Program-made: the position numbers and the translations under genes | IMG/VR virus record: IMGVR_UViG_3300032897_000009 | Span: 1-49,137 of that record | Strand: one strand, 5' to 3' | Length of the DNA stretch: 49,137 nt | From: a virus | Notes under the pieces: generated by a model | The model's input: the letters and a program-made list of their open reading frames with translations, nothing else | Databases searched by the model: none | Told to the model about the DNA's origin: nothing | Shown here: piece by piece, positions 17,434-21,272 of the stretch | How the letters are laid out: every line of letters starts with the position of its first letter | Numbering within the stretch: position 1 is the stretch's first letter

Positions 17434-18351
17434 TTAGCTGTGTCGGGGAAGAGAATCAACTTCTTTGATTCGTTTGAATATCTCAAAGGCTATTTGTGGA
17501 ACAATCGCGTTGCCAAGACCGTGTCCTCGTTTTCCATCTGATTCTAAACTTGCTGTATAGTTATCTTCATATCCCATCAGTCTTTCCTTTTCTATCGGCA
17601 TTAGTTTCCGCAATATAAGTGTCTTGCCATACAAAGGAAGTGTTTCCTCTTGGGGTTGCTCCGATTGTTTGAGCGACGATATTTCTACTTCTTGTTCCTG
17701 TGGAACCCGTGAAGTCAGTCGTTCCAACAGCGAAAGCGATAAGAGTTTCATTCGTTGGGTCGTTTCGTTCACCATCTCTTGTAGAAATACATAACCCCCT
17801 CTGCCCCATTTTTGACTTCGCCTTACCATTCCCTGCACCGCCTTCCTGCTCAAATAATACTTCGGCGGAACATGTGTCTCCAAAACTTCCGACAATCCAC
17901 AACCTTCGCCTTCTTTGAGCCACTCCGAAGTATTGAGCATCAAGCACTCTCCACGCCACGCAATACCCGATTTCGGAAAGCTTGGCGATGATGAACGCCA
18001 TATCTCTCCCACCGTTGACAGAAAGAAGTCCGGGAACATTTTCGAGCACAAACCATTCTGGTTTAGTTTCCTCAATAATTCTTGCCAACTCGCCAAACAG
18101 TCCGGTTCTTTTTCCGGCAAGTCCTTCTCGCTTTCCAGCAATGGAAGCGTCTTGGCAAGGGAATCCTGCTGTGAGAATGAAATCTTTTGTATATCGCCTA
18201 AGCATTCAGAGTCCTTAATGTGTTCGTGGTATACCGTGCAGCCGTTTTCATCTATTTCGCTGTGCCCTATATTTCCGTAGTTTTCCTTCCAACATCTTTG
18301 TGCCGCAAGTGCAAATCCGCCGATTCCTGAAAATAGATCAATATGTCTCAT
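17434..18351 (-). CDS. Cytosine methyltransferase locus 1, frame A (N- and C-terminal motifs plus overlapping central protein)
   Basis: 305 aa, start supported by GGAG and an ATGA overlap. Residues 1-57 carry methyltransferase motif I (DLFSGIGGFALAA); the last ~50 carry the C-terminal motif (GLGNAIVPQIAFEIFKRI). The middle 200 residues are not methyltransferase in this frame. They read SLAKTLPLLESEK...SGIAWRGECLMLN...GLSEVLETHVPPKYYLS, which I recognise as a recurrent phage hypothetical-protein pattern. The catalytic motifs are in frame B over the same bases. A full enzyme would need a -1 then a +1 shift. Confidence 0.7.
   Translation of the reverse strand: MRHIDLFSGIGGFALAAQRCWKENYGNIGHSEIDENGCTVYHEHIKDSECLGDIQKISFSQQDSLAKTLPLLESEKDLPEKEPDCLASWQELLRKLNQNGLCSKMFPDFFLSTVGEIWRSSSPSFPKSGIAWRGECLMLNTSEWLKEGEGCGLSEVLETHVPPKYYLSRKAVQGMVRRSQKWGRGGYVFLQEMVNETTQRMKLLSLSLLERLTSRVPQEQEVEISSLKQSEQPQEETLPLYGKTLILRKLMPIEKERLMGYEDNYTASLESDGKRGHGLGNAIVPQIAFEIFKRIKEVDSLPRHS
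17567..18205 (-). CDS. Cytosine methyltransferase locus 1, frame B (catalytic core)
   Basis: An open frame of 212 aa holding the C5-methyltransferase centre: GFPCQD (catalytic Cys17), LENVPG (Glu55) and QRRRR (97-101), plus a variable target-recognition region. It lacks motif I and the C-terminal motif, which are in frame A. An ATG at 18205 exists but has no clear binding site. Either a split/frameshifted gene or a natural overlap. It may be inactive as annotated. Confidence 0.6.
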   Translation of the reverse strand: MLRRYTKDFILTAGFPCQDASIAGKREGLAGKRTGLFGELARIIEETKPEWFVLENVPGLLSVNGGRDMAFIIAKLSEIGYCVAWRVLDAQYFGVAQRRRRLWIVGSFGDTCSAEVLFEQEGGAGNGKAKSKMGQRGLCISTRDGERNDPTNETLIAFAVGTTDFTGSTGTRSRNIVAQTIGATPRGNTSFVWQDTYIAETNADRKGKTDGI

Positions 18352-18419
18352 TTTCTCTCCGGTATCCCCTCAGGCGTGTAACGGAAAATCTTGATTCTGA
18401 TATGGCGTTCAGTTTCCAT
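18348..18419 (-). CDS. Micro-ORF coupled to methyltransferase locus 1
   Basis: 23 aa with AAGGGG six bases before the ATG; its TGA overlaps the ATG of the methyltransferase (ATGA). Probably a translational-coupling leader. Confidence 0.45.
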   Translation of the reverse strand: METERHIRIKIFRYTPEGIPERK

Positions 18420-18471: not shown

Positions 18472-18478
18472 GTTATAC
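18472..18478 (+). repeat. Lone attC core (R') at the right border of the replication block
   Basis: GTTATAC, the same core as in attC-10, supplies the TAA stop of the second cytosine methyltransferase. I see no convincing paired arms to its left, so this is probably what remains of an attC cut off when the replication block came to lie here. Confidence 0.45.
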
Positions 18479-19465
18479 GGACACGGCGGCAATGGCTCTA
18501 AAAATCTCAAAAGCCACTTGCGGCACAATCGCGTTTCCTAATCCTTTAAGTCTGTCCATCCTATGGGGTATCCCATTAGCCACTCGACCCACTCCGGGTT
18601 CAGTTGACCACCAATCACTGTCGCAAGGTTCTGTCCACCTTGTCCATGTTCTCCCGGTGTTTGCCATGCTCTCGCTGTTGGCGTTGGAAACATTTCCCTT
18701 GCCAGTACACTCTCCAAGTTGTTGAATTTGTCCATCGATCGATTTGGTGTCACTGCACCGGTCATCCTTGCCCTCGGTGTTGGAAGCAATCCCGCTCTTG
18801 CAAGGATGTGAAGCGAGGACTGTATTTTCTTTCCGTTCGCTTTTTTGAAATATGTTTTGTGGAATGTCCAATCCTCTTTTATTTTCCTTCCATCCTCGCT
18901 TGCTCCGGGCGTTGGCAACAATCCATATTCTGTCCCGTCTATGGTTGGCACCGATACCCGCAGCCGGAATAAGGAACGTTTGTGTTTCATAGTTGAGTGC
19001 TTCCAAGTCATCAAGCACGTTGTCGAGTGCCATCTTAACGATACCAGCAACATTTTCGCCAACGATCCAAGCCGGCCTGGCTTCCGATATAACTCTAAGC
19101 ATCTCAGGCCAGAGATAACGGTCATCTTCCTTGCCTTTTCGCTTCCCGGCAACACTAAAAGGTTGGCAAGGGAATCCGCCGGAAACAACGTCAATGGTTC
19201 CTCGGTATTGTGTTCCGTCAAAGTCTCGTATGTCGCGGTATCGTTTTGCATTCGGAAAGTTCCTTTCTAAAACCTTTGTGCAGTAATCATCAATCTCAAC
19301 TTGGAAAACATTTTCCCATCCTGTCCATTGTGCCGCAAGATCAAATCCGCCAATGCCCGAAAAAAGACTGCCGTGCCGTATAACACGCCGCTCAACGGTG
19401 ACGGGATGAGCGTGGTTGCAATCTTCCGTTTCAGTAATATTTTTATTGGTATCGGCATTCATCAT
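18473..19465 (-). CDS. dcm: Cassette gene 7: intact DNA cytosine-5 methyltransferase
   Basis: 330 aa, all key motifs in one frame: LFSGIGGFDLAA (motif I, ~34-45), GGFPCQPFSVAGKR (catalytic Cys100), GENVAG (~136-141), RRDRIWIVA, and GLGNAIVPQVAFEIF at the end. Methylates cytosine, probably to evade restriction. The first ~30 residues, through VERRVIRH, are encoded by attC-7; the TAA lies in the lone core at 18472. No clear binding site before the ATG. A second long ORF overlaps it in the +1 frame. Confidence 0.92.
   Translation of the reverse strand: MMNADTNKNITETEDCNHAHPVTVERRVIRHGSLFSGIGGFDLAAQWTGWENVFQVEIDDYCTKVLERNFPNAKRYRDIRDFDGTQYRGTIDVVSGGFPCQPFSVAGKRKGKEDDRYLWPEMLRVISEARPAWIVGENVAGIVKMALDNVLDDLEALNYETQTFLIPAAGIGANHRRDRIWIVANARSKRGWKENKRGLDIPQNIFQKSERKENTVLASHPCKSGIASNTEGKDDRCSDTKSIDGQIQQLGECTGKGNVSNANSESMANTGRTWTRWTEPCDSDWWSTEPGVGRVANGIPHRMDRLKGLGNAIVPQVAFEIFRAIAAVSV
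18538..19251 (-). CDS. Overlapping +1-frame ORF inside the cytosine methyltransferase gene
   Basis: 237 aa, fully inside the methyltransferase gene in the +1 frame, starting at an ATG that has AAGGA nine to ten bases upstream. The translation (DSLANLLVLPGSEKARKMT..., repeated LLPTP, and the end NPEWVEWLMGYPIGWTDL) matches a pattern I know from separate phage hypothetical proteins found near dcm genes. That a shifted frame carries it suggests real overprinting, not chance. Whether it is made is untested. Confidence 0.5.
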   Translation of the reverse strand: MQNDTATYETLTEHNTEEPLTLFPADSLANLLVLPGSEKARKMTVISGLRCLELYRKPGRLGSLAKMLLVSLRWHSTTCLMTWKHSTMKHKRSLFRLRVSVPTIDGTEYGLLPTPGASEDGRKIKEDWTFHKTYFKKANGKKIQSSLHILARAGLLPTPRARMTGAVTPNRSMDKFNNLESVLAREMFPTPTARAWQTPGEHGQGGQNLATVIGGQLNPEWVEWLMGYPIGWTDLKD

Positions 19466-20463: not shown

Positions 20464-20516
20464 ACTACAATTCCTTTTGTTTTGTGCATCCGCAGCTTAC
20501 GTGCAAATCGTTATAC
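20385..20516 (+). repeat. attC-10 integron-type recombination site
   Basis: R'' GCCTAAC (20385-20391, perfect), arm GCACGTCAAGCTG; right arm CAGCTTACGTGC and R' GTTATAC (20510-20516). Thirteen-base arms pair exactly apart from one unpaired C. 132 bp. Confidence 0.88.
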
Positions 20517-21272
20517 GGCAGCGAACTGCATTGGCAATTGTAAAAGGTATTCATTAAATCGCTTCTCCTGTGCTTGAAAGTAATCGCTGTCTATTTCGCA
20601 TCCAACAAAATCAAGACCCGCCTTATGGCAAGCTATACGAGAGCTTCCGCTTCCTAAATGGGTATCTAAAACATTGCTTCCCTGTTCGGCAAAATTTTCT
20701 ATAATCCACCTGTAAAGCTCAATCGGTTTTTGTGTCGGGTGTATTCTTTGTTCCTTGTTTTTCATATTACCCTGCAACATTCCTTGCCACTTGTATGTAA
20801 ATCTTCTTATGCTTCCATCTAATGATGTCCAAGCCAATTCTATCCCCGAAAATTGCTTATCGCAACCAGAGGGTATCTTATCCCAAACAATCCATTGGCT
20901 TGATTTTGGCAAGAAGTCGGTATAGTGTTGCGCTCCAAATATAATTTGATCTTGGCTCACTCTTCTTAGTTCATCAAAGTATTCCTTAGTCGGTCTTTCC
21001 GTATCATCGAAGTGTTTATACAGGTTTAATTTTGCCGCCTGTGGTTTCCCTCTTGAAATAATTCCATCCTCTTCGTTACAATAACCAATGCCATAAGGCG
21101 GGTCAACAATTGCCAATGCAAAGAACTTATCAGGTACAGTCTTCATGTATTCCATGCAATCTATGTTCAGTGCAATGCTCTGGGGCTGCCGTATAACCAG
21201 CGGCTCAACCGGATGTAATGAGCGTTCCGTTTTAATTTCCGTATCAGTTAATATGTTTATTTGTTTCGACAT
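20511..21272 (-). CDS. Cassette gene 11: N4/N6 DNA methyltransferase (beta class)
   Basis: 253 aa. DPPYG (57-61) is the catalytic motif; the SAM site LDTHLGSGSSRIAC lies near the C-terminus, so the order is that of beta-class amino-methyltransferases. HPTQKP precedes it. Methylates adenine or cytosine at the exocyclic amine, likely for anti-restriction. Residues 1-28, through VEPLVIRQ, come from attC-11. TAA from the core of attC-10. Confidence 0.93.
   Translation of the reverse strand: MSKQINILTDTEIKTERSLHPVEPLVIRQPQSIALNIDCMEYMKTVPDKFFALAIVDPPYGIGYCNEEDGIISRGKPQAAKLNLYKHFDDTERPTKEYFDELRRVSQDQIIFGAQHYTDFLPKSSQWIVWDKIPSGCDKQFSGIELAWTSLDGSIRRFTYKWQGMLQGNMKNKEQRIHPTQKPIELYRWIIENFAEQGSNVLDTHLGSGSSRIACHKAGLDFVGCEIDSDYFQAQEKRFNEYLLQLPMQFAAV

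Follow-up and report, generated by a model that had tools for sequence, protein, structure and literature searches.

A probable nested two-subunit cytosine-5 DNA methyltransferase in a phage genome, with an apparently new division of motifs between overlapping reading frames

M.EcoHK31I was reportedly described as a two-subunit C5-methyltransferase by Lee, Kam and Shaw in 1995. In this enzyme, the gene for the large subunit also encodes the small one, in a different reading frame. The enzyme is proven to consist of two polypeptides, with motifs I to VIII and X on the large subunit and motif IX alone on the small one, and in M.AquI the alpha subunit holds motifs I to VIII and the beta subunit motifs IX and X (PMC3404938). 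Artificial divisions of the fold have also been described: engineered M.MpeI fragments, [280-61] and [62-279], complement each other to restore an active enzyme in vivo, and activity was also seen in some M.HaeIII permutants starting between motifs III and IV (PMC5944983).

We have analyzed the virus record IMGVR_UViG_3300032897_000009 over its 49,137 nt (49 kb; the window, meaning this whole stretch), whose minus strand carries the locus described here as locus 1. We assign locus 1, with a probability of about 0.72, to the nested two-subunit cytosine-5 DNA methyltransferases of the M.EcoHK31I kind, made as two separate chains. The split-and-nested design is a known one; the way in which locus 1 divides the enzyme (motifs I to III together with IX and X on one chain, IV to VIII on the other) appears to be new, and its placement of motif I apart from the catalytic motifs recurs in other phages. 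No description of this division was found in the literature examined, and a literature search on nested or overprinted phage methyltransferases returned nothing relevant.

The motifs typical of C5-cytosine DNA methyltransferases (I, IV, VI, VIII, IX, and X; PF00145) were all found, split over two ORFs (Table 1). Frame A reads MRHIDLFSGIGGF, with FSGIGGF as motif I, SEID as motif II, and GDI as motif III, continues with the overlay (GLSEVLETHVPPKYYLSRKAV, also read as CGLSEVLETHVPPKYYLSRKAV), and goes on to RLMGYEDNYT (motif IX) and GLGNAIVPQ (motif X). Frame B reads MLRRYTKDFILTAGFPCQ, contains GFPCQ (motif IV), LENV (motif VI), and QRRRR (motif VIII), and terminates after DGI. Both ORFs match the Pfam DNA_methylase family (1.5e-15 for frame A and 2.5e-36 for frame B), and frame A also matches PHROG_116 at residues 1-58, PHROG_1008 at 52-157, and PHROG_16143 at 112-173. 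Frame A is +1 relative to frame B, and every frame B codon (212/212) is open in both frames. The preliminary description, made from the sequence alone, had assigned the SAM and C-terminal motifs to frame A and PCQ, ENV, and QRRRR to frame B, with some 200 central codons open in both frames and changes of frame at about 18190 and 17600; our motif reading of both ORFs agrees, the open overlap measures 212 codons, and the two switch points were correct to within a few codons. The same phase relation that it had claimed for a second methyltransferase locus holds as well, with the locus 2 beta also +1 to its alpha. The frame B stop is a TGA directly after motif IX, present because the motif reads GYEDNY, compared with GFPENW in L004, and its position fits a frame B that has been freed from carrying motif X.

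Table 1. Features of locus 1 and of the adjacent locus 2, in window coordinates
Feature	Coordinates	Strand	Remarks
Frame A ORF (P0001, 305 aa)	17434..18351	-	Motifs I-III + beta overlay + motifs IX and X
Frame B ORF (P0002, 212 aa)	17567..18205	-	Catalytic core, motifs IV-VIII, then TRD-like tail
Shine-Dalgarno GGAG	18357..18360	-	5 nt upstream of frame A ATG (18351)
Shine-Dalgarno AAGGA	18212..18216	-	6 nt upstream of frame B ATG (18205)
Motifs I-III (SAM-binding half of Rossmann fold), frame A	18193..18351	-	Profile 81 bits in +1 frame; AlphaFold pLDDT ~92
Motifs IV-VIII (PCQ 18152-18160, LENV, QRRRR), frame B	17843..18181	-	Profile 186 bits
Beta overlay core (NGLCSKMF...LSEVLET..PPKYYLSRKAV...KWGR), frame A, over motifs VI-VIII	17800..18057	-	Profile 152 bits
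Motif IX (LILRKLMPIEKERLMGYEDNYT), frame A	17554..17619	-	Profile survey; L004/L005 comparison
Motif X (RGHGLGNAIVPQIAFEIFKRIKE), frame A	17461..17529	-	Profile survey; comparison with relatives
Locus 2 alpha (motifs I, IV, VI, VIII, X)	18473..19465	-	Classical EcoHK31I-type division
Locus 2 beta (motif IX WLMGYPIGWT), +1, nested in alpha	18538..19251	-	PHROG_1008 1.9e-37

Judged by motif division and frame, locus 1 is like M.EcoHK31I in that its second ORF lies +1 to the catalytic frame and carries motif IX, and locus 2 and most homologues keep the classical division of that enzyme. Unlike the large subunit of M.EcoHK31I (motifs I to VIII and X), however, the overlay-frame chain of locus 1 has taken up motifs I to III and X, and the other chain retains IV to VIII only. 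Frame A resembles M.AquI beta in holding IX and X together, but motif I is found on this same IX-X chain, whereas in M.AquI it is located on alpha with the catalytic motifs and the split falls in the variable region, so that locus 1 does not show the M.AquI-type arrangement (alpha I-VIII, beta IX-X). Phage MM1 1998 (DQ113772, our L084), annotated as "C5 methyltransferase alpha/beta subunit," has the same +1 nested overlay; unlike locus 1, its alpha contains motifs I to X in one frame, next to a short beta without IX. A nearly identical division is seen in the M.MpeI fragments, where one chain has IX-X-I-II and the other III-VIII, although that split is artificial, lies between motifs II and III, and puts IX-X ahead of I (PMC5944983).

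At the protein level, frame A matches residues 12-50 and 271-310 of M.HhaI (phmmer) and frame B residues 74-170 (sequence search, E 1e-15). Structures were modeled as single chains, with alignment rows from viral contigs only. The AlphaFold model of frame A is confident at residues 1-55 and ~250-305 and aligns over M.HhaI 12-327 (122 residues, 2.1 A, Z 9.6), with Z values of up to 10.6 against DNMT3A, and the core model of frame B matches M.HhaI 65-180 (Z 10.2); the regions of low confidence are in the middle of both chains and include the TRD-like tail of frame B. As the two frames cover different stretches of M.HhaI, their predicted folds are complementary parts of one M.HhaI-type fold.

Two other methyltransferases are neighbors of locus 1 in the window. 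One is locus 2, and close to both split genes there is a third, different DNA methyltransferase (positions 20511-21272, minus strand; PHROG_67, 1.9e-39). The motif X tails of locus 1 (17461-17529) and locus 2 (18473-18560) are alike, sharing GLGNAIVPQ[IV]AFEIF at 65% identity, and the locus 1 tail is nearer to that of locus 2 than to those of L004/L006; an old exchange between the two tails is possible.

Each module of related loci in viral contigs and phages was assigned to a frame by scoring. In a first survey, the recurrent phage protein pattern that had already been noticed in frame A was found as the overlay, in the +1 frame and at a fixed offset, in almost all homologues whose core is of this kind. 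Locus 2 falls in a second subfamily, whose beta is different and was missed by the overlay profile. In both subfamilies, most loci have motif IX in the beta frame, and that of locus 1 is 79% identical in L004 and L005, where it is likewise in the +1 frame. Motif I is coded in the catalytic frame in nearly all surveyed loci; the exceptions, with motif I in the beta frame, are the window, L005 (the same locus as L003 and L101), L103, and L161. Among these four, only the window has motif X in the beta frame alongside motif I; it is in the catalytic frame in L004, L005, L006, L103, and locus 2. L005 and L103 come from separate contigs, and their frame-1 identity is 62%. In L161 (positions 463-1150 of a GC-rich phage contig), motifs I to III and IX are in frame 1 and motifs IV to VIII and X in frame 0; its sequence resembles the locus 2 subfamily, with a different beta and motif IX as WEWMMGYPAAWT. 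The four loci also share a short linker. From motif III to PCQ there are 23, 23, and 23 nt in L005, L103, and L161 and 29 nt in the window, in the same register in all four, compared with a median of 54 nt over the 171 motif I/core pairs in which the catalytic frame holds motif I. With the III-IV linker thus ~25 to 31 nt shorter than usual, strands 3 and 4 are encoded back to back in different frames.

The exact layout of locus 1 (frame A, frame B, frame A with motif X) was seen once among the surveyed records, on one metagenomic contig. The exact 38-mer of its junction, searched for as the mark of a near-identical second contig, was not found in viral contigs, scans of the genome collection yielded no relatives, and plasmids gave weak matches to the overlay core only. 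Among isolated phages, there was no record in which a single site covered 80% or more of the L005-type frame-1 protein. Frame A of the window is covered to 98%, in two pieces, in three mycobacteriophages, and Phoebus (L085), the one of the three that we examined, codes for motif I in the catalytic frame.

Other divisions were met in the same survey. Motifs IX and X are both in the beta/overlay frame in L016-L018, L085, and L090-L093, a division that is AquI-like yet nested, and L086 and L084 have all motifs in alpha and a short beta without IX. L010, L019, and L023 are natural circularly permuted C5-methyltransferases that start just before motif IV (alpha ORF starts at 2477, ~1134, and ~2492, respectively), end with motifs I to III, and still carry the +1 overlay. 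As the natural permutants found in an earlier study all break in the variable region (PMC5944983), these three look like an undescribed natural type.

The overlap itself bears the marks of selection. We held the frame B amino acids fixed and redrew the codons from the usage of the window genome, which gave a mean of 4.6 stops in frame A and a stop-free frame in 0.5% of the shuffles, against none observed. Scored with an overlay profile built without the window, the real overlay reached 131.8 bits versus 37 +/- 10 for the shuffles (maximum, 69.5), about 10 standard deviations above them, and an overlap left open by chance is rejected. Counted in catalytic-frame codons, the ratio of third- to first-position changes in the beta core is 0.68 to 0.79 for pairs that include the window, compared with 3.3 in the single-coding, alpha-only N terminus of L004/L006; these changes show a dual-coding signature in the beta core. 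Where motifs I to III lie over the alpha N terminus in L005 and L103, the frame-1 amino acid identity is 0.90, and the changes are confined almost wholly to frame-1 third positions (third/first ratio, 9.0). Given this identity, position of changes, and ratio, the module behaves as a selected protein segment, and the frame-1 I-III module of L005/L103 is under strong purifying selection. For the N-terminal module of the window the comparators are distant (47% identity to L004/L006).

Locus 1 could also be read as a decaying pseudogene, that is, as an EcoHK31I-type gene disrupted by two indels, in which the length of the frame A ORF is accidental, the overlay being open in any case. The window arrangement is unique among the surveyed records, and its N terminus has diverged to the 47% identity just mentioned, as would be expected under such decay. 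We nevertheless regard this reading as unlikely, as the locus has kept its key catalytic and SAM motifs intact, neither frame is interrupted, and motifs IX and X share one frame. Moreover, L005, L103, and L161 share the placement of motif I, the register, and a similar linker, and two of these loci are under clear purifying selection.

Double frameshifting, which the preliminary description had put forward, would give one full-length methyltransferase through a programmed -1 shift near 18190 and a +1 shift near 17600. The order of the motifs along the DNA is the normal one from I to X, and the double-shifted product would hold them all. The sequence reading tells otherwise: there is no X XXY YYZ heptamer at 18181-18205, the only stretch usable for the -1 join of A to B, and the fused product, with its 29 nt between motif III and PCQ against the median of 54, would have almost no loop between sheet strands that are not adjacent, so that both the slippery heptamer and the normal product spacing of a programmed frameshift gene are absent. 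In addition, frame B is preceded by a Shine-Dalgarno sequence of its own, and its ATG comes directly after an in-frame TGA; the alpha frame of L103 likewise starts, with a GTG, immediately after a TAA. A 5-mer Shine-Dalgarno precedes ~8% of the minus-strand ATGs of the window, so by itself it is modest evidence for the frame B start, and the frame A start of L161 is found without a well-spaced one. With no heptamer, a missing strand 3-4 loop, and an own start for frame B, we prefer two chains and consider frameshifting quite improbable. The other explanation offered at that stage, a chimeric protein, suits frame A on its own, which joins a SAM module, the beta segment, and motifs IX and X; for the locus as a whole, two subunits fit best.

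A sequencing or assembly error that shifted motif I (and X) out of frame had been judged improbable from the start, and the constant offset of the overlay across homologues with the same kind of core upholds that judgment. The locus is known from a single metagenomic contig, but a one-base slip cannot produce a linker ~25 nt shorter in the same register as in three other contigs, and the frame B stop after motif IX comes from substitutions (GFPENW to GYEDNY), not from an indel alone, which leaves an error very unlikely. The idea that the overlay, which looks low in complexity, is poorly annotated, and overlaps conserved alpha motifs, is a by-product of alpha amino acids and codon bias, with the alpha fragments alone mattering, is hardly tenable, given that no synonymous-codon shuffle came near its score, that in the beta core the third positions of alpha codons are less changeable than the first, and that most homologues have motif IX in the overlay frame.

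As a nested two-subunit enzyme, locus 1 would be expressed from one mRNA with two separate starts, at the ATG in 18351 for frame A and at the ATG in 18205 for frame B. The frame B chain would supply the catalytic core, which comprises the PCQ nucleophile, ENV, and QRRRR as well as some of the target-recognition region, and the frame A chain the SAM-binding half-fold (motifs I to III) together with the overlay (beta) segment and with IX and X. Both chains, translated independently, would assemble into one C5-methyltransferase fold that is broken between strands 3 and 4, and the assembled enzyme should be active in methylation, probably in order to protect the phage DNA from host restriction.

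The ancestor was probably an alpha/beta gene of the M.EcoHK31I type, in which indels in the III-IV and IX-X intervals would have brought modules of the alpha frame into the beta frame. In the tree of the core, from which L161 was left out, the window is placed with L004/L006 (98/95), both of which have motif I still in alpha, and L005 groups with L103 (99/98); on these groupings, the tree favors separate origins of motif I in the beta frame. A single origin, with the window, L005, and L103 in one clade, is disfavored by the position of the window with L004/L006 (98/95), yet the topology test does not reject it (p-AU 0.244). The sequence of L161, similar to those of the locus 2 subfamily, suggests that it is an independent case.

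We think it somewhat more probable than its opposite that overlapping frames let phage methyltransferases pass modules between subunits by small indels, and that locus 1 is an intertwined enzyme produced in this way, with the halves of its Rossmann sheet (I-III plus IX-X and IV-VIII) in different frames, an arrangement that has maybe arisen more than once. The nested two-subunit methyltransferases would then be a shifting family and not a fixed oddity, as is suggested by the movement of motifs I, IX, and X between frames, and their natural splits between motifs III and IV lie near engineered splits that have been reported to work. This also gives a reason why annotation may present such loci as broken genes or as overlaps of "hypothetical proteins," and the locus offers an unusual test bed for the evolution of dual-coding genes.
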